A DNA stretch of 64,000 bases from Candidatus Zixiibacteriota bacterium (GTDB lineage: Bacteria; Zixibacteria; MSB-5A5; GN15; JACZUZ01), in assembly GCA_024280775.1 (NCBI GenBank), contig JAJRPM010000010.1:1-64000 (forward strand). The letters are read 5' to 3'. Made by a program: the position numbers and the translations under genes. This document shows, piece after piece, positions 19,881 to 38,608 of the stretch. Position 1 is the stretch's first letter. Each line of letters starts with the position of its first letter. Under the pieces are notes generated by a model. That model worked only from the letters and a program-made list of their open reading frames with translations. It did not search any database and was not told the DNA's origin.

Positions 19881-19976
19881 TCTCCTCTGAGAGTCGTATC
19901 AATAAATCGATGGATTGGCCCAATAATTGGCCACCAATAGTTCAATTATTAAGATAAGTATTTGATAAAGATTTCG

Positions 19977-21263
19977 ATGGATACCACGCATACACAAACA
20001 AAAGAAGCTACCACAAAAGAAGCTATGGATAACAAGCCGGGAGTTGCTTCGAGCAATTCCGACTCAAAGAATATCGACCCCAGTAAATGGGGAATTACTG
20101 AGCATGTAGCGACGTTGAAAGCTTCGATTATACGCGAGATGCTGAAGTATTCGCGGATGCCGGGGATAATTTCCTTTGCCGGTGGATTGCCTGCTCCGGA
20201 GATGTTTCCTCTGGAGGATTTGAAAGCGTCTTGCGATTCGATTATTGATAAGTATGGCGCTAATTCGATGCAATACTCGTTGTCGATGGGTATTGCGCCT
20301 TTGCGTGAGGCAATAGCCGAGCGCTCTAATAAGCGCGGGATAATTTCTTCAGCGGATAATATTCTGATAACATCAGGAGCCCAACAGGCGCTGGAAATGA
20401 TTGCCCGGGCATTTATCGATCCGGGTGATGTGATTATTACTGAGTATCCTACTTATGTAGGCGCTATTCAGGCGTTCAATTATCATCGCGCCAAATATGA
20501 ATTCGTGCCGCTCGATGATGATGGAATGCGGGTGGATTTGTTAGAAGAGAAAATCAAACAATCACATCCGAAATTGATTTATGTAGTCTCCACCTATCAG
20601 AACCCGAGTGGCAAGACGATGTCATTGGAGCGCAGGCATAAGTTGGTTGAGATTGCAACGCGCTATAATATTCCGATTGTCGATGATGATCCATATAGCG
20701 AGTTGCGATTCAATGGTGAACCGATTACTTCACTCAAGGCTCTAGGTGGCGATATTGTTATCACACTGGGGACGTTTTCAAAACTTTTGGCTCCGGGCTT
20801 GCGGATTGGTTGGATAAATGGTCCCAAAGAGGTTATGCCACTTTTTGAGCGTGTCAAACAGGTTAGTGATCTGCATGCCAATACTTTTGCGCAGTATATG
20901 ATTTATGATTATCTCGATCGCGGATTGCTGGAAGGGCACATTGATGATATTCGCGCCGATTATTCAGCGAAACGCGACCTGATGATTAAGGCTATTGAAG
21001 AACATTTCCCATCTTCAATAACCATTACCCATCCAGAGGGTGGCCTGTTTTTGTGGTGCGAATTGCCTGAAGGCTCTGATGCACACAAGTTACTTGAGTA
21101 TGCCGTCGAGGAAAAAGTCACCTATGTAATCGGTCAGGCTTTCCATCCCGATGGCGGTGGAAAGAATACATTCCGTCTGAATTTTTCGAATGCGAATCAT
21201 GAGACTATCGTTGAGGGTATCAAACGCTTAGGACGGATGTTCGCCAAGCGTCTGCCAAGTTGA
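19977..21263 (+). CDS. PLP-dependent aminotransferase (class I/II, LysN/aromatic type)
   Basis: I chose the ATG at 19977 over the TTG at 19962 (428 residues). The fold-type I motifs are FAGGLPAPEMFP, MQYSLSMGIAPLREAIAE, ITSGAQQALEMIARAFIDPGD, YVVSTYQNPSGKTM, VDDDPYSELRF and GTFSKLLAPGLRIGW with the PLP lysine. This pattern is typical of the broad-specificity 2-aminoadipate/aromatic/branched-chain transaminases. Its location just upstream of the aromatic cluster makes conversion of phenylpyruvate or hydroxyphenylpyruvate plausible; this is inference. It has its own terminator, so it is a separate transcription unit. Confidence 0.85.
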   Translation: MDTTHTQTKEATTKEAMDNKPGVASSNSDSKNIDPSKWGITEHVATLKASIIREMLKYSRMPGIISFAGGLPAPEMFPLEDLKASCDSIIDKYGANSMQYSLSMGIAPLREAIAERSNKRGIISSADNILITSGAQQALEMIARAFIDPGDVIITEYPTYVGAIQAFNYHRAKYEFVPLDDDGMRVDLLEEKIKQSHPKLIYVVSTYQNPSGKTMSLERRHKLVEIATRYNIPIVDDDPYSELRFNGEPITSLKALGGDIVITLGTFSKLLAPGLRIGWINGPKEVMPLFERVKQVSDLHANTFAQYMIYDYLDRGLLEGHIDDIRADYSAKRDLMIKAIEEHFPSSITITHPEGGLFLWCELPEGSDAHKLLEYAVEEKVTYVIGQAFHPDGGGKNTFRLNFSNANHETIVEGIKRLGRMFAKRLPS

Positions 21264-21284: not shown

Positions 21285-21310
21285 GCAAGGAAAGTCCTTG
21301 CCTTTTTTCT
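21285..21310 (+). terminator. Rho-independent terminator after the aminotransferase gene
   Basis: The 7-bp stem GCAAGGA/TCCTTGC with an AAG loop (21285-21301) is followed by CTTTTTTCT. It separates the aminotransferase gene from the trp leader transcript. Confidence 0.8.
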
Positions 21311-21325
21311 GTAATATGGTATAGT
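21298..21325 (+). promoter_or_regulatory. Candidate sigma70-type promoter of the aromatic operon
   Basis: TTGCCT (21298-21303) and TATAGT (21320-21325) are separated by 16 nt. Transcription would begin near 21332, only a few bases before the leader ATG at 21335, so the leader mRNA could be nearly leaderless. This is a match by eye only. Confidence 0.4.
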
Positions 21326-21334
21326 CCCACTGAG

Positions 21335-21430
21335 ATGAAGTACGCCGAGACCATAAACGCCGCAAGTGCAAAATTTGAAACCACAGGTTTTGAGTTTGTC
21401 CGCTATTACTGGTGGAGTATATCCATATAG
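21335..21430 (+). CDS. trpL: Aromatic (trp) operon leader peptide
   Basis: A 31-codon frame (ATG to TAG) contains Phe codons near its middle (TTT at codons 14, 19 and 21), then Arg-Tyr-Tyr-Trp-Trp. The tandem TGG codons are at 21410-21415, six codons before the stop. Adjacent Trp codons in a short peptide, followed at once by alternative hairpins and a terminator, are the hallmark of ribosome-mediated attenuation. Ribosome stalling at Trp (and possibly Tyr) codons would favour the antiterminator. The leader has no clear Shine-Dalgarno sequence. It is too short and atypical to have been called by length alone. Confidence 0.8.
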   Translation: MKYAETINAASAKFETTGFEFVRYYWWSISI

Positions 21431-21478
21431 GCAGGCGGCTATCTTTTACATTGTACTGAATTTGGATTTTGCCCGCCT
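21400..21478 (+). promoter_or_regulatory. Transcription attenuator (regions 1-3)
   Basis: Region 1 CCGC (21400-21403) can pair with region 2 GCGG (21435-21438). Region 2, as AGGCGG (21433-21438), can instead pair with CCGCCT (21473-21478), which overlaps the 5' arm of the terminator. A ribosome stalled on TGG-TGG (21410-21415) would cover region 1 and release region 2 to form the antiterminator. A ribosome reaching the stop at 21430 would mask region 2 and allow termination. Confidence 0.7.
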
Positions 21479-21498
21479 AGTGCGGGCTTTTTTGTTTT
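21471..21498 (+). terminator. Attenuator terminator of the aromatic operon
   Basis: The perfect stem GCCCGC/GCGGGC with loop CTAGT (21471-21487) is followed by TTTTTTGTTTT. It lies between the leader peptide and the first structural gene at 21614. Confidence 0.9.
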
Positions 21499-21613
21499 AG
21501 GGGTTACTCCTAATTGCTATACTCGGTAGGCCCAATTGGGCGCCCAGCAAACAGCGCGGAAGTGATACGGATTAGGCTGAAGAATAAGATTTGACAAGAA
21601 GAACGAGATTGCA

Positions 21614-22447
21614 TTGAAATACACATTCACTAAATATGACGCAACAGGAAATGTCTTTTTGCTTTGTCGTTCAAACTCGTCATTGTCATCGGAGATACGA
21701 AAGGCTGTGTATAGCTCTCTTGCGCAGAAGATTTGCGCTCCTTTGACAGGAGCCGGAGCTGATGGAGTTTTGGTGTTGAGTCCGGCTAGAGGAGCCGATT
21801 TTACACTTGATGTATTCAATGCCGATGGGAGTTGGGCTGAGCGTTCAGGCAATGGTTTGCGCGCCGCCGCTGTGTTTGCACAGAATGAAATCTCAAGGCA
21901 AAAGAGCTGGAGAATCTCGTGCGGCGGCTCTGTGATTACTGCATCGGTATTGAAGAAAACTTCTCCGTGCGTCTGGCAGGTTTCTACTGAGGTTGGCTAT
22001 CCCGAAATTGAATCTGCGAAACTCAGCGAACTAGTAGCAGGATCCAAAAGCATCAAATACTTGCCAGTGACAATTGGAAACCCGCATGCGGTAATTCCAG
22101 TAAGAGCGTTTCCAAAAGACTGGGTTGAAATAGGCAGGCGCGTTGCAGTTAACCGGCGCTTTAGCGAAGGTGTAAATGTTGAGTTTGTCAAAGTTGTGAA
22201 CCGCCGCAGAGTAGAGATACGAATCTTCGAAAGAGGAGTAGGCCCGACCAGTTCTTCCGGCACAGGCGCCAGCGCCTCTGTTGCCGCTATGAAAGTTCTA
22301 GGGAAGGTATCAGGAAATGTAGCTGTTGATTCTATCGACTTGCAATCGACAAAGCAAAGACTCGATGTAAGTTGGATTGGACTGGACGAGCCGGTATGTG
22401 TCAAAGGGCCAGTCAAAGAGCTATTTACACTACAGGTGGCGCTATGA
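21614..22447 (+). CDS. Diaminopimelate epimerase-like protein with Ser/Ser active site
   Basis: A 277-residue protein of the DapF fold, starting at TTG. It has the family's two half-domain signatures: FNADGSWAERSGNGLRAAA and ERGVGPTSSSGTGASASVAA, with IGNPHAV and RRFSEGVNVEFV between them. In active DapF the motifs are CGNG and ACGTGAC; here both catalytic cysteines are serine. In known DapF enzymes the Cys pair acts as acid and base, so ordinary epimerisation is doubtful. It is the first gene after the trp attenuator and overlaps trpE (ATGA), so its role is probably linked to aromatic metabolism. Alternatives are an altered isomerase or a non-catalytic relative. Confidence 0.75.
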   Translation: MKYTFTKYDATGNVFLLCRSNSSLSSEIRKAVYSSLAQKICAPLTGAGADGVLVLSPARGADFTLDVFNADGSWAERSGNGLRAAAVFAQNEISRQKSWRISCGGSVITASVLKKTSPCVWQVSTEVGYPEIESAKLSELVAGSKSIKYLPVTIGNPHAVIPVRAFPKDWVEIGRRVAVNRRFSEGVNVEFVKVVNRRRVEIRIFERGVGPTSSSGTGASASVAAMKVLGKVSGNVAVDSIDLQSTKQRLDVSWIGLDEPVCVKGPVKELFTLQVAL

Positions 22448-23949
22448 TGTTCTCACAAGCAAGAGTTCGTGAACTTGCACGCGAGGGAAATGTGATACCT
22501 CTGTATGTACGTGTTCCGGCGGATTTGGACACTCCGGTTTCGACATTTCTGCGTTTGGCCAAAGGGAAGCGCTACTCGTTCTTGCTTGAGTCAATTGAAG
22601 GTGGCGAGAAATTGGCGCGCTATTCGTTTATCGCTTTTGATCCGTTCATGCGAGTTAAGGTGTTTCCTCCCGAGGAGAAGAGTAGCAACTCAAGAGAGCG
22701 TATAGTTGAGGTTGTTCGAGGTCGTAAACGTGAACGCGTTGTCGCAGAACCATTGGTGGTCGTTAATGAAATTCTAAACCGCTTTCGGCCGGTTAACATT
22801 GAGGGGATTCCTCGTTTTTCCGGTGGGGCGGTGGGGTATTTCGCTTATGACACTGCCGGTTGGGTGGACAAGTTTCCGGATGTAAACTCGGATGAAATAA
22901 ATATGCCCGATTGTATCTTGGGGTTCTACCAGTCTGTGGTTGTCTTTGATCATCTCAAGCAAGAGATTATTCTTATCTCGAACATACTCGTTGATGAAGA
23001 AAACAGCGGGAAAGCGCAGTCACTTAGCGCCAAATACACGTATGCAAAACAATGGCTAGTGGATACCCAGCAAAAACTACAATCAGCAGCGGTGAGGCGA
23101 ACGTCGGATTCCGAAAAACGAAAGCGCAAGCCGAAGTTGAAGTCGTTGACATCACGAAAAGAATTTGAACGTATAGTTCGCAAAGCGAAAGCGTATATCA
23201 AAGAGGGTGACATATTTCAGGTTGTGCTGTCAAGGCGCTGGAAAACCAAGTCTGATTTGCCGTCGATAGAAATTTACCGCAAGCTACGCCGTATCAATCC
23301 GTCTCCGTATATGTTTCTATTGCAATTTGGGGATGCCGCTGTCATTGGCTCATCGCCTGAGATGTTGGCGCGAATTGAAAATGAAACAATTGTTACACAT
23401 CCTATAGCGGGCACCAGGCCACGAGGCGCGAATGAAGCGCAGGATCGTCGCAACGAGGAATCTTTGTTACATGACGAAAAAGAGCTAGCCGAGCATACAA
23501 TGCTACTTGATCTAGGCAGGAATGATATTGGTCGTGTGTCCAAGTCAGGTTCGGTGCGTGTTATTAGGCAGATGGAAATCGAGCGCTATTCACATGTGAT
23601 GCATATGGTTTCTGCTGTTGAGGGTGATTTGACTCCGGGTCTGCCTGCCTTGGATGGTATGTTTAGTTGTTTCCCGGCGGGAACCGTAAGCGGAGCGCCT
23701 AAGATTAGGGCGATGGAGATAATTTCGGAACTTGAAGAATCGCGCCGGGGAGTCTATGCCGGGGCTATTGCATATTTGGATTTTTGGGGGAACCTGGATT
23801 CATGTATTGCGATTCGAACTATAGTCAAGCAAGGCGATGCCCTGTATTTGCAGGCTGGCGCTGGAATTGTCGCTGATTCGGTTCCGGCGCGTGAGTTTGA
23901 TGAGACAGCGCATAAGGTAGAGGCGCTTTTTGCAGCGCTTAACAGCTAA
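22444..23949 (+). CDS. trpE: Anthranilate synthase component I
   Basis: 501 residues from the ATG at 22444, which overlaps the preceding TGA (ATGA), indicating translational coupling. With TrpG it converts chorismate and glutamine to anthranilate. The N-terminal LLES motif (YSFLLESIEGGEKLARYSF) marks the tryptophan feedback site. The chorismate-binding domain shows IKEGDIFQVVLSRRW, NPSPYMFLL, HPIAGTRPRGA, DEKELAEHTMLLDLGRNDIGRV, FPAGTVSGAPKIRAMEII and GGNLDSCIAIRT-like motifs. The family's catalytic His and Glu motifs appear conserved. Confidence 0.96.
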   Translation: MMFSQARVRELAREGNVIPLYVRVPADLDTPVSTFLRLAKGKRYSFLLESIEGGEKLARYSFIAFDPFMRVKVFPPEEKSSNSRERIVEVVRGRKRERVVAEPLVVVNEILNRFRPVNIEGIPRFSGGAVGYFAYDTAGWVDKFPDVNSDEINMPDCILGFYQSVVVFDHLKQEIILISNILVDEENSGKAQSLSAKYTYAKQWLVDTQQKLQSAAVRRTSDSEKRKRKPKLKSLTSRKEFERIVRKAKAYIKEGDIFQVVLSRRWKTKSDLPSIEIYRKLRRINPSPYMFLLQFGDAAVIGSSPEMLARIENETIVTHPIAGTRPRGANEAQDRRNEESLLHDEKELAEHTMLLDLGRNDIGRVSKSGSVRVIRQMEIERYSHVMHMVSAVEGDLTPGLPALDGMFSCFPAGTVSGAPKIRAMEIISELEESRRGVYAGAIAYLDFWGNLDSCIAIRTIVKQGDALYLQAGAGIVADSVPAREFDETAHKVEALFAALNS

Positions 23950-23959
23950 GAGTGACAAT

Positions 23960-24544
23960 ATGATTTTGATGATTGATAACTACGACTCGTTCACTTACAA
24001 TCTGGTTCAGTACTTAGCTGAAATAGGGGCTGACTTACTTGTGGTGCGCAATGATGAGAAGACTTCTGAGGAGCTAATTGCTTTGCATCCTGAAGGCATC
24101 GTTGTATCACCCGGTCCGGGGCGGCCTGAAGGAGCCGGTGTATGTATGGAGTTGATTCAGAGAGTAGCTGGTAAAACACCGTTGCTTGGCGTGTGTTTGG
24201 GGCATCAATCAATCGCTCAGGTATTCGGCGGTACTATTGATTATGCGCCGACTTTGATGCATGGGAAAGTTTCACAGGTGACACATACTGATTCAACCTT
24301 GTTTAGTGGAATCGAGAATCCGTTTGTTGCTACCCGTTATCATTCATTGGTGGTAAAGCCGGATACTGTTCCTGATGAGTTTGAAGTAACTGCGCAGACT
24401 GAGGACGGTGTGGTAATGGCTCTTGAAAGTGATGCGTTGCGAATTTATGGAGTTCAGTTTCATCCGGAGTCAATTATGACCCCCTGCGGCAAGGGCATCC
24501 TGCGCAATTTCCTGCGAGTTGTAGGAGGTAGAGCTAGGGCATGA
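23960..24544 (+). CDS. trpG: Anthranilate synthase component II (glutamine amidotransferase)
   Basis: The ATG at 23960 (194 residues) gives the canonical start MILMIDNYDSFTYNLVQYL. The class I amidotransferase triad is visible: Cys in GVCLGHQSIAQVFGG, and His and Glu in GVQFHPESIMT. It supplies ammonia to TrpE. It begins 10 bp after trpE and overlaps trpD by ATGA. In many bacteria the same subunit also serves PabB; no pab genes are in the window. Confidence 0.95.
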   Translation: MILMIDNYDSFTYNLVQYLAEIGADLLVVRNDEKTSEELIALHPEGIVVSPGPGRPEGAGVCMELIQRVAGKTPLLGVCLGHQSIAQVFGGTIDYAPTLMHGKVSQVTHTDSTLFSGIENPFVATRYHSLVVKPDTVPDEFEVTAQTEDGVVMALESDALRIYGVQFHPESIMTPCGKGILRNFLRVVGGRARA

Positions 24545-25551
24545 AGATGATTCTCGAAATGTTAGGCGCCGGCAGTGACATGTCGCGCCGAGAGTCCAGC
24601 GAATTGATGATGGGCATAATTGGTAATGCTTATGATGATTTGCAAATCGCCGGGATGCTTATGGCGCTGAAAACCAAAGGTGAGACTGCTCAGGAAATTG
24701 CAGGCTTTGCGGATGCATTGCTTATTTGCGCAAACAAGATTGCTTTAGTTGATGACGGAGCAGTTGATTGCTGTGGAACTGGAGGAGATGGTTCGGGAAG
24801 TTTCAATATCTCTACTGCAGCGGCGATAGTTGCCGCAGGAGCCGGGGCCAAAGTCGCTAAGCATGGGAATCGTTCGGTGTCCTCCAAGTGCGGTTCTGCA
24901 GATTTGCTGGAGTATTGCGGTGTCAAAATCGATCCGGGGATTGATGCGGTTCGTGAGTGTTATGAAAAGCTGGGAATTTGTTTCATGTTTGCTCCGCGTT
25001 TTCATCCGGGAATTAAAATGGTGATGCCTGCCCGCAAGGCTTTGGGTGTGCGTACGATATTCAATATGCTCGGGCCGTTGTTGAATCCTGCTCGTGTGAC
25101 AAGACAGTTGCTGGGAGTTTACAACAAAGAAGTTATGCCGCTATTTGCTGAGACATTGCAGGAATTGGGAACGCGAAGAGCGTTGGTTGTGCATTCACAT
25201 GATGGTCTTGATGAAATATCAGCTTCGGCGCCAACCGATGTGCTTGAAATATGTGATGGTAAACTAGAGTCTTACACGAAGTCTTACACAGTGACACCGG
25301 AATCGCTTGGAGTCACTAAGGTTGATATATCCGAAATAGCTGGCGGAGACGCAAAGGCTAATCAGGCATTGCTGAGAAGTTTGCTCAATGGTCGCCAAAC
25401 TGGCGCGCGTCCTGCGACACTTGCGAATGCGGGCGCGGTGATATACTTGTCAGGTCTCTCTGAGAGTATCGCAGAGGGCGTAACATTGGCAAGAGAGGCT
25501 GTAGATTCGGGAGCCGCTCGTGAAGTGTTGAGTGAGTGGTTAAATCTTTGA
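24541..25551 (+). CDS. trpD: Anthranilate phosphoribosyltransferase
   Basis: A 336-residue enzyme of normal length that transfers the phosphoribosyl group from PRPP to anthranilate. The signature CGTGGDGSGSFNIST (PRPP binding), KHGNRSVSSKCGSADLLE and FAPRFHPGIKMVMPARKALGVRTIFNMLGPLLNP are intact. The start overlaps the trpG stop (ATGA). It is monofunctional, not fused to TrpG. Confidence 0.95.
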   Translation: MKMILEMLGAGSDMSRRESSELMMGIIGNAYDDLQIAGMLMALKTKGETAQEIAGFADALLICANKIALVDDGAVDCCGTGGDGSGSFNISTAAAIVAAGAGAKVAKHGNRSVSSKCGSADLLEYCGVKIDPGIDAVRECYEKLGICFMFAPRFHPGIKMVMPARKALGVRTIFNMLGPLLNPARVTRQLLGVYNKEVMPLFAETLQELGTRRALVVHSHDGLDEISASAPTDVLEICDGKLESYTKSYTVTPESLGVTKVDISEIAGGDAKANQALLRSLLNGRQTGARPATLANAGAVIYLSGLSESIAEGVTLAREAVDSGAAREVLSEWLNL

Positions 25552-25588
25552 GATTGACTGGTGAGGATTTGTCGAACTGGACTATTGA

Positions 25589-26932
25589 ATGAATAAGAAT
25601 ATTGATTGTGACATAGAGCCGTCAGGAGGCTCAAAGACGACATCGGCGCCTGATAAGGTTGGTGACGGACTGAGTTGGTCGCAGCGCTATGCAGTGTCAC
25701 TGCGGTTGTTGAGCGCCAATGCTAAGCGCTATCTTATAGGAGCGTTCTTACTTGGTATTACGCAAGCGAATATCCAATTGCTCTTCAATTTGTATCTTCG
25801 CGAGCGAGACGTCACAGAGTCGATCATCGGAAGCATACTTTCTTCGCGGGCGACTGGCGCGGCGTTGATGGCGCTACCTGCGGGGTTTCTACTGTTACGG
25901 AGCAAGCTCAAGCCGGTATTGATTGCTTCTTCATTGGTTTTCAGTGTTTCTGTGGGATTGATGGCGATGTGGGAAAGTGTGGAGTCGCTGTGGATGTTTG
26001 CTATGGTTGGTGGTATGGCATTTACGTTTTACCGGGTTGCCGCCGCGCCTTTTTATATGCGTAACTCAACGCCGACTGAGCGTCCGATGTTGTTTTCGTT
26101 GGGCTTTGGGATGATGACACTCTCAGGCGCTGTGGGATCTCTGGGGGCAGGTTACTTGGTGACAGTGTTTCAGGATATCGGCGGATTCGAATCCGTTTTG
26201 GCGCATCGCTATGCATTGTATGTTGGAGTGAGCGCCGGTGTGTTTGCGACAATTCCATTCTCGTTTATTGTTTCTAAGAAGCCGAGTCGTAAGGAGCGAG
26301 AGTCAGTTCTTTCATGGGATAGAGTGCGTGGACGTCTTGGCGTTTACTTGAAATTGTTCATTCCGTATTTCCTGGTGGGACTGGGAGCTGGATTCATAAT
26401 TCCATTCTTGAATATCTATTTCCGCGACAGATTCCATCAAACCACAGACGAAATAGGTGTATACTATTTCGCTGTGTCAGTGGCAACGTTTTTGGGGACT
26501 ATGGCTGCTCCGGCTATTGTTCACAAATTGGGGAAAATCAAGACTGTAGTTGTTACCGAATTGTTGTCAATTCCGTTCATGTTGATATTGGCCTATACTG
26601 CAAGTATTGAATGGGCGGTGGCGGCGTTTTTGTTGCGTGCGGCTTTTATGAATATGGGTCAACCGGTTTCGACGAACTTCTCTATGGAAGTGGTCACTGA
26701 GAAAGAACAGGGTTTAGTTAATGCGCTTATGATGTTGGCCTGGACTGGTAGTTGGACTTTTTCAACCAGTTTTGGTGGAACACTTATTGAAAAGCATGGC
26801 TATGAGTTGCCAATGCTGATAACAATTGCATTGTATGTTTTGGCTTCAGTCTTGTACTACATCTTTTTCCGTAAGGCCGAAACGAAAGAGAATGGTCTCT
26901 ATGTGGTAAATTTTAGCGGGTTGAATTCATGA
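25589..26932 (+). CDS. MFS transporter embedded in the trp operon
   Basis: A 447-residue protein with a polar N-terminal tail and about 12 predicted membrane segments in two halves: YLIGAFLLGITQANIQLLFNLYL, GAALMALPAGFLLL and VLIASSLVFSVSVGLMAMW in the first, and LFIPYFLVGLGAGFIIPFLNIYF and MLILAYTASIEWAVAAFLL in the second. It is a major facilitator superfamily member, with no substrate-specific motif that I recognise. It overlaps trpC by ATGA, so it is translated as part of the operon. Import or export of an aromatic compound is the natural guess but is inference. Confidence 0.8.
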   Translation: MNKNIDCDIEPSGGSKTTSAPDKVGDGLSWSQRYAVSLRLLSANAKRYLIGAFLLGITQANIQLLFNLYLRERDVTESIIGSILSSRATGAALMALPAGFLLLRSKLKPVLIASSLVFSVSVGLMAMWESVESLWMFAMVGGMAFTFYRVAAAPFYMRNSTPTERPMLFSLGFGMMTLSGAVGSLGAGYLVTVFQDIGGFESVLAHRYALYVGVSAGVFATIPFSFIVSKKPSRKERESVLSWDRVRGRLGVYLKLFIPYFLVGLGAGFIIPFLNIYFRDRFHQTTDEIGVYYFAVSVATFLGTMAAPAIVHKLGKIKTVVVTELLSIPFMLILAYTASIEWAVAAFLLRAAFMNMGQPVSTNFSMEVVTEKEQGLVNALMMLAWTGSWTFSTSFGGTLIEKHGYELPMLITIALYVLASVLYYIFFRKAETKENGLYVVNFSGLNS

Positions 26933-27699
26933 ACCGACTGTTACGTGAAATAATTGAGGCGAAGCGCGGTGATTTACTTAACATCCTAGGGGAGTCTGTG
27001 GCGCCTGAAGTTCCGCTGGCTTCAATTCCATTTCGGAGCTCTTTGGTTAACACAAACTCGCCTGCGTTTATTTGTGAGATCAAAAAGGCGTCCCCTTCTG
27101 AGGGAGTGATTTGCGAAAACTTTGAACCTAAGAAAATAGCGCAGTCTTACCAAGCGGGAGGCGCGACGGCGCTTTCGGTTTTGACGGATGTTCGTTTTTT
27201 TCAAGGGGCTCCTGAGTATGTAGCTCTCGCGAAGGGCGCTAGCGGGTTGCCGGTGTTGTGTAAGGATTTCTTTATCGACCCCAGGCAGGTGTCATGGGCG
27301 AAAAGGCTGGGGGCTGATGCGGTGTTGTTGATAATGCGTGTTCTTTCAGACTCTCAAGCTCAGGAGATTTACACCGCCTGCTCGGAGGATGGTCTTGATG
27401 TATTGGTTGAGACTCATGATGAGGACGATGTTGAGCGGGCGTTGGTTTTGGGGGCTAATATGATAGGAGTTAACAACCGCGACTTAGATACATTTGAGGT
27501 GAGCCTTGATGTGTCAGAGCGCCTGAAGAGTTACATACCTGATTCGACGCTTGCTATTTCTGAATCAGGTATTAAGACCAATAGTGATGTGATGAGACTT
27601 AGAAAGTCCGGGTATGACACGTTTCTGGTGGGTAGCTCTCTAATGAGGGCTGATGACAAGGTTAATGCGTTGAAAGAATTGCGCGGGAACGCTGAGTGA
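26929..27699 (+). CDS. trpC: Indole-3-glycerol phosphate synthase
   Basis: A 256-residue TIM-barrel enzyme that cyclises carboxyphenylamino-deoxyribulose phosphate to indole glycerol phosphate. Conserved active-site blocks are CEIKKASPSEGVI (catalytic Lys), LSVLTDVRFFQGAPEY, VLCKDFFIDPRQV (catalytic Lys), EDGLDVLVETHDEDD (Glu), IGVNNRDLDTFEV (Asn) and ISESGIKTNSD (Glu-Ser). It overlaps the MFS gene upstream and trpF downstream. Confidence 0.95.
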   Translation: MNRLLREIIEAKRGDLLNILGESVAPEVPLASIPFRSSLVNTNSPAFICEIKKASPSEGVICENFEPKKIAQSYQAGGATALSVLTDVRFFQGAPEYVALAKGASGLPVLCKDFFIDPRQVSWAKRLGADAVLLIMRVLSDSQAQEIYTACSEDGLDVLVETHDEDDVERALVLGANMIGVNNRDLDTFEVSLDVSERLKSYIPDSTLAISESGIKTNSDVMRLRKSGYDTFLVGSSLMRADDKVNALKELRGNAE

Positions 27700-28340
27700 T
27701 GACCTTTCCTAGAACAAAAATATGCGGGATAACGCGTGTGCGTGACGCTCAACTAGCGGCAAAGCTTGGCGCGGACTTTTTGGGGTTGATTACCTACAGG
27801 AAGTCCCCAAGAGTAGTGACGTTGAACCTCGCTAAGAACATTATTGAATCAACCCCACCTACTGTTCAGTTTGTTTTGGTGTTCGTAAATGAAAGTGTAG
27901 ATGCTGTGATCTCACGTGCGAGACGGTTGAGGTGTTCGATAGTTCAATTACATGGCAAATACACCGCCGGTGATGTTTCGCGGATTCAGAAGGCGGGACT
28001 TCGGGTTATTTGCGCCTTTCAGATTGGCGTGCTTCAGATTGACGCAGTGACGGATTTGGCAAAAGCGAGATCGTCCCGGGCTGATTTTGTGTTGCTTGAT
28101 ACAAGAGACACTAGTGATAACGACGTTCATGGCGGCACAGGTATGTCTTTTGACTGGGAATTGTTGAAGCGGCCGACGAACAGGCCGCGCAACTTGATTC
28201 TTGCAGGTGGCTTGTCGGCGGCAAATTTCAAGAAGGCCGTCGAACTTGTTCAGCCGTTGGTTTTGGATTTCAATTCCGGTGTGGAGTCTTCGCCGGGGAT
28301 TAAGTCTGCGCTTAAACTCAAGAGGCTTTTTTCAGCGTAA
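27699..28340 (+). CDS. trpF: Phosphoribosylanthranilate isomerase
   Basis: The ATG at 27699 shares one base with the trpC stop (TGATG); a GTG at 27696 is the alternative. The 213-residue TIM barrel has KICGITRVRDAQLAAKLGADFLGLI with the catalytic Cys, VQLHGKYTAGDV, DFVLLDTRD with the catalytic Asp, and LAGGLSAANF then DFNSGVESSPGIKS at the phosphate site. It catalyses the Amadori rearrangement before TrpC. Confidence 0.94.
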   Translation: MTFPRTKICGITRVRDAQLAAKLGADFLGLITYRKSPRVVTLNLAKNIIESTPPTVQFVLVFVNESVDAVISRARRLRCSIVQLHGKYTAGDVSRIQKAGLRVICAFQIGVLQIDAVTDLAKARSSRADFVLLDTRDTSDNDVHGGTGMSFDWELLKRPTNRPRNLILAGGLSAANFKKAVELVQPLVLDFNSGVESSPGIKSALKLKRLFSA

Positions 28341-28359
28341 AAGAAATGGAGACGACTAA

Positions 28360-29577
28360 GTGGCGAATAAATCACAGCCGGATAGAGATGGTCGCTTCGG
28401 GGAGTATGGTGGAAGGTTTGTTCCTGAAACTGTCGTTTTCGCTTTGGAGGAATTGACGAGAGCCTACAAGGTTGCTCGCGGCGAAAAAGAATTCAAGAAG
28501 CGGTTTTCGGATTTGCTCCGGGACTATGTAGGTCGTCCCTCGCCGTTATACTTTGCACAGCGATTCTCTGATAAAGTTGGCGCTGATGTGTATCTGAAGC
28601 GCGAGGATTTGAATCACACTGGAGCGCATAAGATTAACAATTGCCTGGGGCAGGCGTTGCTTGCGATGCGCATGGGCAAAAAGCGGATTATCGCTGAAAC
28701 CGGAGCGGGGCAACATGGGCTGGCTACCGCCACTGTTTGTGCGTTGTTCGGGCTTGAGTGTGTGATTTATATGGGGGCGAAAGATGTTCAGAGGCAGGCG
28801 CCGAATGTGCGTAAGATTGAATTCCTTGGAGCCAAGGTTGTCCCGGTTACGAGCGGCGCTCAGACTCTTAAGGACGCAACCAATGAGGCGATGCGTGACT
28901 GGGTGACGAATATTGAGACGACATTTTACATCATTGGCTCTGCTGTCGGGCCGCACCCGTATCCGATGATGGTTCGTGATTTTCAAAGTATCATCGGCAA
29001 AGAAGCGCGCCGACAAGCTCTGGGGCGTTTGGGGACACTGCCGGATTATGTGGTTGCTTGTGTTGGAGGCGGTTCAAATGCTATCGGTATTATGAACGCT
29101 TTCTTGCGTGATACGAAAGTGGAACTGATAGGAGTTGAGGCTGGAGGATATGGACTCTCTAGTGGTATGCATAGCGCCTCATTGACTAAAGGCAGGCCGG
29201 GAGTTTTGCACGGCTCTTATAGCTACCTTCTCTTTGATAATGAGGGACAGGTAATATTGCCGCATTCTATTTCAGCGGGGCTGGATTATCCGGGAGTCGG
29301 GCCGGAGCATTCGCATCTTCGGGATACTGGCCGGGTTGTTTATCGCTCGGTGACCGATAAACAGGCGCTGACGGCATTCAAGGCTCTTTCGTTATGCGAG
29401 GGAATCATTCCGGCGCTGGAGAGCTCGCACGCTCTCGCATATTTGATGGTCGGCAAAGAGTTCAAGAGCCGAGACAAAAACAAGGCCGGGAAGAAGCGGC
29501 CTAGTGTGATACTATGTCTTTCGGGTCGGGGCGATAAGGATATGGACATAGTTGAAGATGCGCAGGGGAAGGTTTGA
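28360..29577 (+). CDS. trpB: Tryptophan synthase beta chain
   Basis: 405 residues from a GTG start with an upstream GGAG. It condenses indole and serine using [18 protein letters not shown] opens the protein. The PLP lysine is in [18 protein letters not shown], with [20 protein letters not shown], the phosphate-binding GGGSNAIGI, and the C-terminal [11 protein letters not shown]. This is the canonical TrpB1 type that pairs with TrpA, encoded directly downstream. Confidence 0.97.
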
Positions 29578-29581
29578 GGAT

Positions 29582-30400
29582 ATGACTATTTCAATTGCGC
29601 ACAAGTTCAAGTTATTGAAAACGTCTGGTCGTAAGGCGCTAATCCCGTTTTTCACCGCGGGTTATCCGTCATTGGCGGAAACTGAGAAGCTGGCGTTGAC
29701 CGCTGTTTCTGCTGGCGCTGATGTACTTGAGATTGGGATGCCATTTAGCGATCCTCTAGCGGACGGTCCGGCAATACAGGTTTCCAGTTTTGAAGCCCTG
29801 AAGTCGGGATTGAAGATGAAGGATACTTTTTCTTTGGTCGAACGTATCGCAGGCAAGACTGGAACGCCTATTGCGTTGATGGGTTATTACAATCCGATAT
29901 TGGCTCAGGGAATTTCGAAATTTGTACGCTCGGCGAAATCTGCCGGGGTTAGCGGGTTGATTATCCCGGACCTGCCCCCTGAAGAAGCTGGCGAATTGCG
30001 TGATATTGCCCGCGACGCGCAAATGGGACTTTCGTTTTTGGTGGCGCCTACTACTGGCGAAAAGCGCTATGCGACTATAGCGAAGGCCTCCTCTGCGTTT
30101 GTCTATGCGGTTACGGTCGCGGGTGTTACAGGCGCAAGAACCACTTTCGCTACTCGAACCGATGACTATTTACGCTCAGTTCGAAAGGCGATATCCAAGC
30201 CGTTGGTTGCCGGTTTCGGGATATCGGATGGAGTCACGGCGAAAAAGATGGCGCTCCGGGTTGATGGAGTTGTGGTGGGTTCGGCGTTTATTGATTTGAT
30301 GCGCAAGAACACTCGGGCAACGGCCAGGGCTAGAGTTGGCGCCTTGGTTGAGGAGATTAGGAAATCGATAGATTCACTGGATTCTGGTAGGAATAGTTGA
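29582..30400 (+). CDS. trpA: Tryptophan synthase alpha chain
   Basis: I chose the ATG at 29582, 4 bp after the trpB stop and preceded by GGTTTGAGGA (272 residues). The alpha subunit cleaves indole glycerol phosphate. Active-site Glu and Asp are in ADVLEIGMPFSDPLADGP; LIIPDLPPEEAGEL, YAVTVAGVTGAR and the phosphate-binding GFGISD and VVGSAFIDLM are present. It ends the tryptophan-specific section of the cluster. Confidence 0.95.
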   Translation: MTISIAHKFKLLKTSGRKALIPFFTAGYPSLAETEKLALTAVSAGADVLEIGMPFSDPLADGPAIQVSSFEALKSGLKMKDTFSLVERIAGKTGTPIALMGYYNPILAQGISKFVRSAKSAGVSGLIIPDLPPEEAGELRDIARDAQMGLSFLVAPTTGEKRYATIAKASSAFVYAVTVAGVTGARTTFATRTDDYLRSVRKAISKPLVAGFGISDGVTAKKMALRVDGVVVGSAFIDLMRKNTRATARARVGALVEEIRKSIDSLDSGRNS

Positions 30401-30459
30401 TACTCTTGGGCGAGCCCGACCATAGCTTGATTAGGTTGAGTGGGGCTTGGAAACAGACG

Positions 30460-30828
30460 ATGAGCAAGTCAGATTCAAATAGAAACGACAAACCCGATAA
30501 TCCCAATAATCCCAATAATCCCGATGAACTCCCTGAGTTCGAAGAACTTCGTCAGAAGTTTCGGGATAGGATTGATGAGCTTGATGAGCGGATTCTAGCG
30601 GCTCTGAATGAGCGGGCTCAATGTGCGATTGATGTTGGAATTGTGAAGAAGAAACATGGCCAACGGTTGTTCGACCCGAAACGTGAAGAGCGGGTTTTGC
30701 GACGATTGGTAGAAATAAATGGAGGACCGCTTGCAAATGAGGCGGTTCTGCGACTGTTTGAAAGAATCATAGATGAATCTCGCCGAGTGGAGCGAACCGA
30801 GGTCTATGACAAGAACGATTTGAAGTAA
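30460..30828 (+). CDS. Chorismate mutase (AroQ-class, monofunctional)
   Basis: The ATG at 30460 (122 residues) is preferred over a TTG at 30397. After an Asn/Pro-rich tail encoded by 9-nt tandem repeats (CCCAATAAT) comes the all-helical mutase domain: LRQKFRDRIDELDERILAALNERAQ, VGIVKKKHG, FDPKREERVLRRL and LFERIIDESRRVE. The arginine, lysine and glutamate positions that bind chorismate are kept; the Gln of E. coli mutase appears as Glu, as in several other family members. It makes prephenate, the substrate of the TyrA encoded downstream. No dehydratase is fused to it. Confidence 0.88.
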   Translation: MSKSDSNRNDKPDNPNNPNNPDELPEFEELRQKFRDRIDELDERILAALNERAQCAIDVGIVKKKHGQRLFDPKREERVLRRLVEINGGPLANEAVLRLFERIIDESRRVERTEVYDKNDLK

Positions 30829-30853
30829 TGAGAGTGATGAGGTTACGGCCACT

Positions 30854-31897
30854 ATGATAATAGTAATGAACGCCACAGCGACGACTGAGAATATTCAGGC
30901 GGTTGTCGAGCGACTAACTGAACAGGGTTTTGATATACATAAATCCACAGGCGCCACCCATACAGTTTTGGGCGTGGTAGGTGGCGCTGGGGCTGTGGAT
31001 CCTCGGAATTACGAATTGCTGGACGGAGTCGGCGAAGTTGTTCGTATTAGCGAGCCATACAAGCTCGCTGGAAGATTGTTCAGAAAAGAAGACACTGTCA
31101 TCGATATTCGCGGTGTAAAGATCGGCGGGAATGAAATAGTTCTGATGGCCGGGCCTTGTTCGGTTGAGTCTCGTAGCGGGATTCGCGAGGCGGCGAAATT
31201 TGTTAAGCGATCCGGGGCCAAGGTTTTGCGCGGCGGGGCATTCAAGCCGCGAAGCTCTCCGTATTCATTTCAAGGCCTGGGTGTTGAGGGGCTTAAGTAT
31301 ATGCGTGAGGCCGCCGATGAAAACGGATTGTTGGTTATTTCTGAAATCATGGATCGGATGGATTTGCCTACGGCGATGAAGTATATCGATATCATTCAGG
31401 TGGGCGCGCGGAATATGCAGAATTACACTTTGTTGCGCGAATTGGGGAATATGCCCAAGCCGGTTTTGCTGAAACGCGGGATGTCGGCAACAATTAAGGA
31501 GCTTTTAATGTCCGCGGAATATATTATGGCTGGCGGGAATCACGAGGTGATACTATGCGAGCGTGGAATTCGGACATTCGAAAGTTACACGAGAAACACG
31601 ATGGATATTTCGGCTATTCCGATTCTCAAGAGTCTGTCACATTTGCCGGTGATTGCCGACCCAAGTCATGGCACCGGTATTCGTGATAAGGTGACGCCGA
31701 TGGCTCGCGCCTCGGTGGCCGCCGGAGCCGATGGTCTACTGATTGAGGCCCATCAGGACCCGGACCATGCGCTATCTGACGGAGCGCAGTCACTATATCC
31801 TGATCAGTTGCAAGAATTAGTGGAGCAGTTGCGAATTATTTCCAAAGCGGTGAATCGGACGATAGCGCCTGAGCCAGAGCGGATTAATGTGAGCTAA
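30854..31897 (+). CDS. aroF: DAHP synthase, type I-beta, copy 1
   Basis: A 347-residue enzyme making 3-deoxy-D-arabino-heptulosonate 7-phosphate from PEP and erythrose 4-phosphate, the first step of the shikimate pathway. Residues 1-75 form the N-terminal ferredoxin-like regulatory domain (MIIVMNATATTENIQAVVERL). The barrel follows with AGPCSVESR, RGGAFKPRSSPYSFQGLG, IIQVGARNMQNYTLL, KRGMSATIKE, CERGIRTFESYTRNT and IADPSHGTGIRD. A second copy lies at 34665. It overlaps argS by one base. Confidence 0.95.
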   Translation: MIIVMNATATTENIQAVVERLTEQGFDIHKSTGATHTVLGVVGGAGAVDPRNYELLDGVGEVVRISEPYKLAGRLFRKEDTVIDIRGVKIGGNEIVLMAGPCSVESRSGIREAAKFVKRSGAKVLRGGAFKPRSSPYSFQGLGVEGLKYMREAADENGLLVISEIMDRMDLPTAMKYIDIIQVGARNMQNYTLLRELGNMPKPVLLKRGMSATIKELLMSAEYIMAGGNHEVILCERGIRTFESYTRNTMDISAIPILKSLSHLPVIADPSHGTGIRDKVTPMARASVAAGADGLLIEAHQDPDHALSDGAQSLYPDQLQELVEQLRIISKAVNRTIAPEPERINVS

Positions 31898-33738
31898 TGA
31901 GTACCATGACCAAATCGATTTCAGAGAATACAGAGGCAACAACATTTGCCAGATTTCAATCCGAGTTTGCTGAAGCTGTTTCGGGCGCATTGCAAAAGGC
32001 CTATGGAGAGTCAAGCGCTGTTGCATTGGAAGCTGAGTTGCTGTCATTTGAGCATGTAGTCTCGCAGATTGAGCGACCCAAAAAGTCGGAGTTTGGCGAT
32101 TTGGCGTTTCCTTTGTTTCCTTATGTAAAACTCGTAAAAAAAGCGCCGAAAGCTGTATTTGATGATATTAAGTCGGGGATGGAGCTATCTGCTGAAGTTG
32201 GCGAGGTGACATTCGCTGGTGGCTATCTCAATATCAAACTGAGTTCTCATGGAGTGGCGCAAGCTCTTGCCAAGGAAGTTCTTTCTGCCCCGCAACGATT
32301 CGGACAATCTACGATTGGCGCCGGTAAGCGAGTCTTAGTTGAATTCTCTTCTCCCAACATCGCGAAGCCTTTTGGAATCGGTCATTTGCGTACTACGGTT
32401 ATCGGGGCGAGTTTGAATCGCATCTTCGGGTTCCTGGGATATGACACTACTAGCATCAACTACCTCGGTGACTGGGGTACGCAGTTTGGTAAGATGATTG
32501 TGGCGTACCAGAAATGGGACGGAGAGAATGCGCTTAAGGAAAACGCTATCAAAGGCGCCTTGGCGCTATATGTGCGTTTTCATAAAGAGGAAGAGACTGA
32601 CCCGTCACTATCAGAGGCGGCTCGTCTGGCTTTCAAAAAGCTTGAAGACGGCGACGCCGAGATGGTCAAGCTTTGGGAGATGTTCAAGGATGTTTCCTGG
32701 GCCGAGTTTAAGCGGGTGTATGACATACTGGGGATAGATTTTGACTTGATTACCGGTGAGTCATTCCTGAATGACAAAATGGATTCTGCGATTGCGCGTT
32801 TAGAAGCCGCGGGGCTTACATCAGAGTCACGAGGAGCTTTGGTTGTCGATTTGGAGGAGTTCAATTTGCCGCCATGTTTGTTGCGAAAACAGGATGGCGC
32901 GACTTTGTATGCTACTCGTGATATTGCAGGTTTGATGTACCGCTGGGAGACTTATCATTTTCAGGAGTCACTATATGTTGTAGGTTCTGCACAGGCGGAT
33001 CATTTCAAGCAGGTGTTCAAGGTGATTGAATTACTTGAGGACGCAGAAAAGACAGCTCCTGATGAGCGAATGACTGGCAAAGTTAAGCACATTCCTTTTG
33101 GTTGGGTAAAGTTTGAAGATCAGGCATTGAAGACTCGCGCCGGTCATGTGATTTATCTCGATGATGTTTTACAAAAAGCAATTGCGCTGGCCGAAGAGAA
33201 GATTCGTGAAAAGAACTCTGAATTGCCGGAGCTTGAGAAAGTGGCCAACCGAATTGGAGTTGGAGCAATTGTCTTTAGCCAACTTTCGGTGCGTAAGCAA
33301 AAAGATGTGAACTTTACTTGGGAAGGCGCTCTTAGTTTCGAGGGCGAAACCGGGCCGTATTTGCAATATACGCATGCGCGACTTAGCTCATTGTTGCGCA
33401 AGTACGGTCGTGAGTTGCCGGACGTCGCTTCGCTGGACTTTGGTGTGCTTGAGGATTCGGTGACACATCAGTTGGTAGTGACACTTTCAAGATTTCCATC
33501 TGTAGTTGAGCTTGCCGCGAAAGAGTATGAGCCGTTCTTGATTTCGTCATATCTGCTGGAGTTGACGTCATTGTTCAATTCATTCTATCAGCGTCGTGAC
33601 GATGATGGCAGAATAGTTAAGATACTTTCTGATGACGTTGCTTTGACAGATGCGCTAATGGCTGTGGTAAGTATGACCAAGACGACTATTGCCTCGGGAC
33701 TGGATTTGTTGGGTGTTGAAGCCCCGGAAGAAATGTAG
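31897..33738 (+). CDS. argS: Arginyl-tRNA synthetase
   Basis: A 613-residue class I synthetase. The N-terminal Arg-specific domain (residues about 20-130) is followed by the catalytic core with the HIGH-like motif in SSPNIAKPFGIGHLRTT, NYLGDWGTQFG, YATRDIAGLMYR and VGSAQADHFKQVF. The C-terminal anticodon-binding helical domain carries YLQYTHARLSSLLRK. The ATG shares a base with the DAHP synthase stop (TAATG), so it is genuinely inside the aromatic operon, an unusual place for argS. Confidence 0.95.
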   Translation: MSTMTKSISENTEATTFARFQSEFAEAVSGALQKAYGESSAVALEAELLSFEHVVSQIERPKKSEFGDLAFPLFPYVKLVKKAPKAVFDDIKSGMELSAEVGEVTFAGGYLNIKLSSHGVAQALAKEVLSAPQRFGQSTIGAGKRVLVEFSSPNIAKPFGIGHLRTTVIGASLNRIFGFLGYDTTSINYLGDWGTQFGKMIVAYQKWDGENALKENAIKGALALYVRFHKEEETDPSLSEAARLAFKKLEDGDAEMVKLWEMFKDVSWAEFKRVYDILGIDFDLITGESFLNDKMDSAIARLEAAGLTSESRGALVVDLEEFNLPPCLLRKQDGATLYATRDIAGLMYRWETYHFQESLYVVGSAQADHFKQVFKVIELLEDAEKTAPDERMTGKVKHIPFGWVKFEDQALKTRAGHVIYLDDVLQKAIALAEEKIREKNSELPELEKVANRIGVGAIVFSQLSVRKQKDVNFTWEGALSFEGETGPYLQYTHARLSSLLRKYGRELPDVASLDFGVLEDSVTHQLVVTLSRFPSVVELAAKEYEPFLISSYLLELTSLFNSFYQRRDDDGRIVKILSDDVALTDALMAVVSMTKTTIASGLDLLGVEAPEEM

Positions 33739-33741
33739 CTG

Positions 33742-34677
33742 ATGGCGAGATACGTTAAATCTACCAAAGGAACTGGACTAACCGGCGGAAGCAGTAAGGC
33801 CCTAGTGAGGAAGCGTAAAGTTTCTTTGCGTCAAGCTAGTGTTCGGTCTATTGGTATTTGCGGGGTCGGGCTGATTGGTGGCTCTATTGCTGAGCGCCTG
33901 AAAAGCAAGTGTTCAGCTTTGAAGATTGTTGGACATGATAGAAAGCCTGTTCTTAGAACCGCTCTTTCGCAAAAGGTAATTGATAGTGTTGCAACTCCAA
34001 TTGAAATGTTAGGTGATTGCGATTTGATAGTTCTATCGGCGAACCCGTCGACTAACCAGACTATACTCCGCGCTCTAAGTAGGCGCAAAACCGAATCGGC
34101 TCCATTGATAATCGATACAGGTTCTACCCAAAGCGGGATTGCAGAGTTGGCTGATTCACTAAAGTGGAACAATCAGGCGTGTTTTGTCGCAGGGCACCCG
34201 ATGGCCGGTAGAGAAATACAGGGAATAGAGAGCAGGCTACAGAATCTTTTCGAAGAGCATCCGTTTTTCTTTGACAGGTCTGTTGCTCTGAACTCACAGC
34301 AAAGAACAATTCTGGATTGGTTTACCGGAGCGCTTGGTTCATTCACGATGTACGTTGACAATCAGGCGCATGACGAAGTAATGACGGACATTTCACACAT
34401 ACCTCAGTTGCTCTCGACAATCATGGGGGGCTTTGTAAGTCACTATGATAAACAGACGATCCACTTGGCCGGCACAGGTTTGCAATCAATGATTCGTCTT
34501 GGTGGCTCGCCATACAGTAACTGGCGGGATGTCTTTGAGGAAAACAGCGAGCGCCTGTGCGAGCGTCTGGATGTTTTGATTAGCGATTTGTCTCTTGCGC
34601 GTGAAAGAATTCAAGCTGGCGAATCATTGCAGGATAGTTTTAAGAAAGCCAAAAGGGGTTATTCATGCTTGTGGTAA
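33742..34677 (+). CDS. tyrA: Prephenate/arogenate dehydrogenase
   Basis: A 311-residue NAD(P)-dependent enzyme of tyrosine synthesis. After a 35-residue basic extension comes the Rossmann motif ICGVGLIGGSIAERL; then LIVLSANPSTNQ, IIDTGSTQSGI, FVAGHPMAGREIQGI, ISHIPQLLSTIMGG with the catalytic His, and the C-terminal helical dimerisation domain. No ACT or mutase domain is fused; the mutase is encoded separately upstream. It overlaps the second DAHP synthase gene by 13 nt. Confidence 0.92.
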   Translation: MARYVKSTKGTGLTGGSSKALVRKRKVSLRQASVRSIGICGVGLIGGSIAERLKSKCSALKIVGHDRKPVLRTALSQKVIDSVATPIEMLGDCDLIVLSANPSTNQTILRALSRRKTESAPLIIDTGSTQSGIAELADSLKWNNQACFVAGHPMAGREIQGIESRLQNLFEEHPFFFDRSVALNSQQRTILDWFTGALGSFTMYVDNQAHDEVMTDISHIPQLLSTIMGGFVSHYDKQTIHLAGTGLQSMIRLGGSPYSNWRDVFEENSERLCERLDVLISDLSLARERIQAGESLQDSFKKAKRGYSCLW

Positions 34678-35678
34678 TGAAATCCAGCGCATCTGTTGAA
34701 ATGGTTGATGCGGTAGTTAAGGCTGTTGCCGATATGGGCCTCAAGGCGCATCCGATTCCCGGGGCCAATCGCACCGCGATTGGAATCACTGGCAACAAGG
34801 CGCAAGTCAATGACTCCCAACTACGAGCTTTGGCTGGAGTTGAAGACTTGGTGCATGTTACTGCGCCATACAAGTTGGTCGGTAGGGATTTCCATCCGCA
34901 GAGCAGTGAAGTTGTAATCGACGATGTAGTAATCGGCGGCAAAGAAATAGTGTTAATGGGCGGACCCTGTTCGGTTGAACCCTTGGAGATTACACTAGAG
35001 ATAGCCAAAGCTGTGAAGAACGCCGGTGGTAAAGTATTTCGCGGCGGCGCATTCAAACCGCGAACTTCGCCGTATTCTTTCCAGGGCTTGGGAGAAGAGG
35101 GGCTCAAGATATTGGCCCAAGTGCGTCAGGAGACGGGGCTGAAGATAATCACTGAGGCGATTGACCCTGAGAATCTCAAATTGGTTGCGGAGTACACAGA
35201 TATTATTCAGATTGGCGCGCGTAATATGCAGAATTTTTCTTTGTTAAAGGCCGCCGGTAAGTCTGATAAGGCGGTGATGATAAAACGTGGTATGTCCAGC
35301 ACTGTTGATGAGTTGCTGATGGCCGCTGAGTATGTGCTGGCTGGCGGTAATGAGCGAGTGATATTGTGTGAGCGTGGGGTCAGGACTTTTGCGGCGCATA
35401 CACGTAATACTTTGGACCTGTCGGCAATACCATATGTCAAAGCCAGGAGTCATCTGCCGATAATTGCAGATCCTAGTCATGGCACAGGTGTCAGGGAGAT
35501 GGTTGCGGCGCTTTCGCGCGCCTCTATTGCCGTTGGCGCTGATGGATTGATTCTTGAGACTCACATTCAACCTGACAAAGCGCTCTCTGATGCGTTCCAG
35601 ACTATCACTACAGAAGAGTTCAGCTCTGTTGCGAAAGAATCTGCAGAGATTGCGCACATCATGGGACGAAAACTATAG
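34665..35678 (+). CDS. aroF: DAHP synthase, type I-beta, copy 2
   Basis: A 337-residue paralogue of the enzyme at 30854, with the same architecture: N-terminal regulatory domain (MLVVMKSSASVEMVDAVVKAV) and barrel motifs GGPCSVEP, RGGAFKPRTSPYSFQGLG, IIQIGARNMQNFSLL, KRGMSSTVDELL and DPSHGTGVREM. All active-site blocks are intact, so both copies should work. The regulatory domains differ much more than the barrels, which suggests different effectors (inference). It overlaps tyrA. Confidence 0.94.
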   Translation: MLVVMKSSASVEMVDAVVKAVADMGLKAHPIPGANRTAIGITGNKAQVNDSQLRALAGVEDLVHVTAPYKLVGRDFHPQSSEVVIDDVVIGGKEIVLMGGPCSVEPLEITLEIAKAVKNAGGKVFRGGAFKPRTSPYSFQGLGEEGLKILAQVRQETGLKIITEAIDPENLKLVAEYTDIIQIGARNMQNFSLLKAAGKSDKAVMIKRGMSSTVDELLMAAEYVLAGGNERVILCERGVRTFAAHTRNTLDLSAIPYVKARSHLPIIADPSHGTGVREMVAALSRASIAVGADGLILETHIQPDKALSDAFQTITTEEFSSVAKESAEIAHIMGRKL

Positions 35679-35684
35679 CTATTT

Positions 35685-37052: not shown

Positions 37053-37074
37053 GAAACGTCTTAGCTAGAGCGAG

Positions 37075-37995: not shown

Positions 37996-38584
37996 CATAC
38001 AGGTTGGCGATTCATCTGACTATGACCGTACACGGATAGTTTTTCTGACGGGTCTTTCCGGGTGCGGCAAATCCACTATCTCTGTTGAGTTAGCGCACGT
38101 AATGAAAAGAGAGTGTATTGATACCGACGAGCGCATTACCGAGCGAGAGAACAGGTCGATTCGAGAGATATTTGAGACTCAAGGAGAGAGGCGCTTTCGA
38201 GAGATCGAAACACAAGTGATTCAGGAGATTGTCGAGAATTGTACTGCAGAGGATGCAAACAAATATGTCGTAGCTCTTGGAGGCGGCGCTTTGATGTCCC
38301 AGGAGAACGTCGCCTGTGTCAAAAAGGCGGGACTGCTGGCTCTGCTAGAAGTTAGTTGCTCAGTTGCCGCTGAAAGATTGCAGGGACTCTATGACAGGCC
38401 GCTGGCGCTCGATGATAAGGGAAAGTTGTTATCTGTTGAAAAGCTTAGCGATCGGCTTGCAAGGTTGTTAGAGGATAGAAGTGAAGGTTTCTCTCAAGCA
38501 GATTTTGTGGTCAATAGCGGTACAAATTCGATTGTCACTACTTGCGAGAATATCCGCAGTTATGTTGAGTCTTTGGCGCTATAG
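37979..38584 (+). CDS. aroK: Shikimate kinase
   Basis: A 201-residue P-loop kinase that phosphorylates shikimate. The Walker A motif is GLSGCGKST, the shikimate Asp lies in CIDTDERITE, RRFREIETQVI carries the arginine, VVALGGGALM the GGG loop, and LYDRPLAL the lid arginine. The start overlaps aroE; a second ATG at 37982 is possible. Confidence 0.92.
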   Translation: MMKQSDIQVGDSSDYDRTRIVFLTGLSGCGKSTISVELAHVMKRECIDTDERITERENRSIREIFETQGERRFREIETQVIQEIVENCTAEDANKYVVALGGGALMSQENVACVKKAGLLALLEVSCSVAAERLQGLYDRPLALDDKGKLLSVEKLSDRLARLLEDRSEGFSQADFVVNSGTNSIVTTCENIRSYVESLAL

Positions 38585-38608
38585 AAGGCTTTCGAAGAGT
38601 GTGAACAG

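Follow-up and report, generated by a model that had tools for sequence, protein, structure and literature searches.

The closest described systems are the trp attenuators of the trpL type, represented in Rfam by the family RF00513 (Trp_leader). In Escherichia coli, the short leader ORF of trpL has tandem Trp codons close to its end; the antiterminator and the terminator have one arm in common, and the stop codon is placed so that the terminating ribosome covers region 2. In the same organism, thrL (Thr, Ile) and ilvL (Ile, Val, Leu) are attenuators with several control amino acids. In Sinorhizobium meliloti, where trpE(G) alone is controlled, the leader AUG is itself the 5' end of the rnTrpL attenuator RNA (PMC7298713). 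In Corynebacterium glutamicum, aromatic codons are found in two separate leader peptides that control aromatic biosynthesis genes, aroR before aroF and trpL for trp (PMC11802643). Finally, double or triple UGG codons and complementary triples in terminator and antiterminator are described for actinobacterial trp attenuators in one report (PMC1262725). According to a 2010 survey, leader-peptide attenuators had previously been known only from Proteobacteria and Actinobacteria (PMC2965389), and our literature search found no earlier description of trp attenuation in Zixibacteria.

The locus compared here belongs to a Candidatus Zixiibacteriota bacterium and lies in a window of 64,000 nucleotides, the whole stretch of DNA analysed (positions 1 to 64,000 of contig JAJRPM010000010.1). 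A preliminary description had proposed a trp-type attenuator in front of a 20-kb aromatic cluster. Leader, pairing, spacing and comparison with relatives bear out the ribosome-mediated mechanism, and the element is very probably a transcription attenuator of the trp type with Trp as its control amino acid. It shares with E. coli trpL the tandem codons late in a short leader ORF, the common arm and the position of the stop, whereas its leader is twice as long, predicted to be nearly leaderless and provided with Tyr codons beside the Trp codons. The genes controlled are also different, since the first one is dapF and the cluster adds argS and genes of the chorismate and Tyr pathways. The RNA start at the leader AUG, known in S. 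meliloti, is predicted here, but a long operon follows. In contrast to C. glutamicum, Tyr and Trp codons occur in one leader. As in thrL and ilvL, codons for more than one amino acid match the end products of the operon, but those leaders serve Thr and branched-chain pathways and the second input of the present one is a probable reading of its codons. Repeated UGG codons and complementary triples are common to the actinobacterial attenuators, which belong to another phylum and for which the accessible part of the report mentions neither Tyr codons nor leaderless starts (PMC1262725).

In Rfam, the region matches RF00513 best, over the full model (1-100) but with 24.7 bits (E=0.008), and the gathering threshold of 41 bits is not reached. 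At gathering score, Rfam gave no match at the loci of eight relatives and, in the window, tRNAs only, with no T-box or other riboswitch. The element would work like Trp_leader without being counted in that Rfam family. Every feature of the trp attenuation class that a sequence can reveal appears to be present, with the exception of the protector hairpin, which is uncertain. The features are collected in Table 1.

Table 1. Features of the attenuator and of the genes around it, with positions in the window; promoters and pairing arms are predicted.
Feature	Position	Strand	Basis
Class I/II aminotransferase gene	19962-21263		protein family search
Terminator-like hairpin GCAAGGAAAGTCCTTGC and T-run, 3' of the aminotransferase gene	21285-21301	+	terminator scan, sequence
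Promoter P1, TTGCCT-16-TATAGT, extended -10 (TGG)	21298-21325	+	predicted; same layout in G001, G002, G003
Leader ORF MKYAETINAASAKFETTGFEFVRYYWWSISI, 31 codons (ATG 21335, stop TAG 21428-21430)	21335-21430	+	sequence; control codons kept in relatives
Candidate region 1, protector arm CGCCGC	21358-21363	+	fold prediction only
CCGC, doubtful region-1 arm	21400-21403		sequence
Control codons TAT-TAC-TGG-TGG (TGG-TGG 21410-21415)	21404-21415		sequence
Best RF00513 match	21404-21495		Rfam
Region 2, antiterminator 5' arm TAGGCAGGCGGC, sharing bases with the stop codon	21428-21439	+	pairing analysis
AGGCGG in region 2	21433-21438		sequence
Region 3 TGCCCGCCTAGT, terminator 5' arm and loop, antiterminator 3' arm	21470-21481	+	pairing analysis
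Attenuator terminator GCCCGC-CTAGT-GCGGGC and TTTTTTGTTTT (hairpin 21471-21487)	21471-21498	+	sequence, terminator scan
Putative promoter P2, TTTAGG-16-TATACT, TG ahead	21496-21523	+	family alignment, promoter scoring
dapF, first gene past the attenuator, TTG start, overlapping trpE	21614-22447	+	TIGR00652
trpE, trpG, trpD, MFS transporter, trpC, trpF, trpB, trpA	22372-30400	+	protein families
Chorismate mutase, DAHP synthase 1, argS, tyrA, DAHP synthase 2, aroA, aroE, aroK, aroB, aroQ	30397-40152	+	protein families
argS (arginyl-tRNA synthetase)	31897-33738
552-aa protein, 3' of aroQ	40157-41815

The positions first given for the leader ORF, its control codons, AGGCGG, CCGC and the terminator all agree with the sequence. 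The short ORF contains tandem codons for a product of its own operon, conserved in relatives; TGG-TGG is followed by AGT ATA TCC ATA and then the stop, giving a peptide that ends in RYYWWSISI. The sequence TATTACTGGTGG occurs a single time in the 3.17-Mb genome. An intrinsic terminator with a T-run lies between the leader ORF and the first gene, and its 5' arm can pair instead with region 2 in a predicted antiterminator stem of -15 kcal/mol, stronger than the terminator itself (-11 to -12 kcal/mol). The pairing of region 2 begins at +14 from the last Trp codon and the stop codon abuts region 2, a spacing that would leave region 2 free at the stall and covered at the stop.

The protector hairpin is less clear. 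CCGC had been put forward as the region-1 partner of AGGCGG, but it offers 4 bp only and the predicted fold of the untranslated leader pairs region 2 with the upstream CGCCGC instead, which makes CCGC doubtful and leaves a 1:2 hairpin uncertain as a predicted structure. By itself, the fold of the whole leader was only moderately more stable than shuffled sequence (z=-1.46; 13/200 shuffles equally good), as was the antiterminator of the window (z=-1.4). That the element is real and not due to chance is confirmed by comparison, because it recurs in 4/4 genomes of the family and, phylum-wide, in 32 leaders.

In the proposed mechanism, RNA polymerase would start at P1, giving a leader mRNA whose 5' end nearly coincides with the AUG, and the leader would be translated by a ribosome close behind the polymerase. 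Were charged tRNA-Trp, and probably also tRNA-Tyr, scarce, the ribosome would stall at the control codons with its front edge at about 21428; region 2 would be free to pair with region 3, the terminator would be blocked and transcription would proceed through dapF-trp-aro-tyrA. With ample charged tRNA, the ribosome would reach the UAG at 21428, where region 2 starts, region 2 would be covered and the terminator would form. The leader ORF, control codons, terminator, exclusive 2:3 pairing, spacing and gene context are observed in the sequence and its comparison, and they suggest stalling, termination and a response to Trp.

Upstream of the element are lexA, dinB and the aminotransferase gene, and a separate terminator-like hairpin sets the latter apart from the leader transcript. 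In support of attenuation, a promoter (P1) is predicted upstream of the leader and conserved in the family. The end of its -10 is 9 nt from the leader ATG, which places the predicted start of the leader mRNA at about 21332-21333 and would make it near-leaderless. In the same way, nine further leaders of the phylum (G001, G002, G003, G023, G042, G006, G009, G062, G096) follow a strong promoter, and in each the distance from the end of the -10 to the ATG is exactly 6 or 9 nt. No Shine-Dalgarno match was found in those nine, whereas one is present in many other leaders of the phylum, and the prediction for the nine is a leaderless or near-leaderless mRNA.

In all 3 other genomes of the family, the element occupies the interval from the aminotransferase gene to dapF; the leaders contain ARSYWWSVPI (G001), VRSYFWWGGNT (G003) and NNYLYFWRSWRYG (G002). 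Beyond the family, TrpE was matched at threshold in 67/132 genomes of the phylum, and the region upstream of dapF or trpE was scanned in the TrpE-positive genomes with sufficient sequence. This yielded 32 trp leaders, distributed over 30 genomes and nine families; each has two or more Trp codons and a T-tailed hairpin. The check on relatives that had been suggested for the locus thus came out in its favour, with Trp codons in tandem or near-tandem, the alternative pairing retained and compensatory change across families. An ordinary terminator of the aminotransferase gene beside a chance short ORF, as might be imagined from most genomes of family f4 where just a terminator separates aminotransferase gene and dapF, is rejected in view of this conservation in family and phylum and retains a negligible probability: the aminotransferase gene has its own hairpin, and the 32 leaders repeat the combination of Trp codons, spacing and alternative pairing.

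Pairing between region 2 and the 5' arm of the terminator was found in 32/32 leaders, with bases that differ by family. The core is GGCGG/CCGCC in the family of the window, where it hardly varies, GATAGTGG/CCGCTATC in f2 and part of f4, GATCGGTGGG/CCCGTCGATC in f19 and CGGGCGGG/CCCGCCCG in f7, so that an antiterminator excluding the terminator has been rebuilt with compensatory change across the phylum. Mean pairing energy of region 2 was -18.0 kcal/mol with its own arm vs -11.2 kcal/mol with arms of other families, and the own arm was better than every cross-family arm in 18/32 leaders. Against shuffled sequences, the antiterminators had a median z of -2.5 and at most 10/200 shuffles were as good in 21/32 leaders; two f19 leaders were no better than shuffles. 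In addition, counted from the initial T of its last Trp codon, every leader (32/32) has the start of region 2 at 13-25 nt downstream (the search for it opened at +3 from that codon), which is the spacing that a stalled ribosome needs to leave region 2 free.

Tandem pairs of complete Trp-leader attenuators were seen upstream of trpE, before one trp operon, in L134 (G004) and L130 (G010); both leaders of G004 are Tyr-rich (GFYFGRYWWWHY and GYSYSYYWWWY). Trp-leader attenuators also precede trpE in L052, L091 and L093, whose titles name Dehalococcoidia or Chloroflexi (TNNWWWR in Dehalococcoidia), and in many Bacteroidetes relatives (L109, L111, L183-L239). On the contrary, in most f4 genomes that carry this cluster the gap from the aminotransferase gene to dapF lacks a Trp leader (L114-L120, L123-L128, L138), and in several of them it contains a terminator alone. 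The leader has been lost, or was never present, in most f4 genomes, and therefore the element is not universal and another control must exist there.

How far the attenuator commands the cluster is a separate matter. Within 23.9-43.8 kb, no convincing plus-strand intrinsic terminator was found, and terminator-like sites on both strands numbered 24 against 20.3 expected. This agrees with control of the whole 20 kb, as first proposed, but that proposal has to be qualified, as a conserved promoter-like -10 seems to lie between the terminator and dapF. The motif TATA[C/A]TC is kept 33-34 nt 3' of the terminator in 4/4 family members while almost no neighbouring column is conserved, and it may be the -10 of a second promoter, P2, that bypasses the attenuator. 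A weak promoter downstream of the terminator may provide unregulated basal expression. An inverted repeat is present ahead of TATA[C/A]TC in some of the four loci, the window, L112, L113 and L139 (TTGGGATGAATCCCAA in G001). A second promoter with an operator is one possible reading of the P2 region.

If P2 or internal promoters did most of the work, the attenuator would be present but minor. The fixed distance of TATA[C/A]TC from the terminator and the f4 genomes that manage the same cluster without a leader are compatible with this, but P1 is precisely placed and outscores P2 in 4/4 family members, by a slight margin in some, and control codons and pairing have been maintained by selection, which implies that the attenuated transcript is of consequence. 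A minor role is accordingly unlikely. Within the cluster, argS lies among the aromatic genes at a position shared by many relatives. The 552-aa protein gene 3' of aroQ, without NCBIfam or Pfam match, is apparently the next gene of the cluster.

From Phe codons and the Tyr pair, it had been suggested that several aromatic amino acids could be sensed, in keeping with an operon that makes them all. That premise fails: tyrA is inside the cluster, but pheA is outside it on a different contig, so that the products of the cluster are chorismate, Tyr and Trp and do not include Phe. The suggestion itself survives for Tyr, as a probable input associated with tyrA, and not for Phe. Phe codons show no enrichment around the Trp run (4.9% vs 4.0% elsewhere), their association with tyrA is not significant after correction (p=0.053) and no genome with a match has pheA close to the trp operon. 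No Phe or Tyr leader was found before pheA of this genome.

For Tyr, a control window was defined around the last Trp codon, from 8 codons ahead of it to 2 codons beyond. In the Zixibacteria leaders, Tyr represents 18.5% of the non-Trp residues in this control window vs 3.0% in the rest of the leaders, a sixfold difference. The mean number of Tyr codons in it was 2.31 with tyrA in the operon vs 0.62 without (p=1.1e-4). With independent contrasts on the TrpE tree, the relation of Tyr count to tyrA held (r=0.66, p=2.5e-4), and Tyr came first among 19 amino acids. The Tyr-tyrA hypothesis had been framed after these leaders were seen and was first tested on the same data. Because of this, a second set was assembled from another phylum, within the class and the order to which a Bacteroidetes relative belongs, in which tyrA was searched with PF20463 and then with a profile built from the TyrA found, which caught a divergent TyrA that PF20463 had missed. 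There the means were 2.25 with tyrA vs 0.44 without (p=5e-4 uncorrected), at least one Tyr codon was present in 8/8 tyrA operons and some Tyr in 4/16 operons without tyrA. After correction for relatedness r was 0.41 (p=0.049) with Gln scoring above Tyr, and the second set agrees in direction and lends weak support to the link. Codons for the second product are associated with the gene for that product in both sets.

Set against a sensing of Tyr is the simpler idea of an attenuator that reads Trp alone, in which Tyr codons would be passengers that position or slow the ribosome or serve RNA structure, the level of Tyr going unsensed. Trp codons are the sole constant feature of the leaders, and Tyr codons also occur in some operons without tyrA, as in G021 and G089. 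Moreover, the C. glutamicum AroR leader (Phe-Tyr-Phe) responds to Phe and not to Tyr (PMC11802643), and a Tyr codon without a Tyr response calls for caution here. On the other side, the Tyr count tracks tyrA after correction for relatedness in Zixibacteria and in the same direction in the second set, and Tyr is encoded both by TAT (34) and by TAC (15), a point in favour of the amino acid over a fixed RNA sequence. Passenger Tyr codons are a tentative explanation, somewhat short of an even chance, whereas Tyr as a real second control input stands, from these comparisons, at about evens.

In the fuller form of the two-amino-acid reading, one leader would read the supply of both Tyr and Trp and couple the chorismate-Tyr-Trp cluster, together with dapF and argS, to the scarcer one, and control codons would evolve with the gene content of the operon, Tyr codons fading where tyrA is absent. 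We regard this as having roughly equal chances of holding or failing. The principle of attenuation is textbook, and it is the apparent Tyr input tracking the gene content of the cluster that is unusual.

Ribosome-mediated trp attenuation would by this element be extended to Zixibacteria, represented here by a little-studied bacterium. The near-leaderless starts predicted for this and other leaders suggest that attenuation is workable without a ribosome-binding site. If it is true that Tyr is sensed too, the leader would be a naturally occurring aromatic switch with two inputs. How control codons follow gene content would then be testable on the numerous parallel leaders of the phylum.
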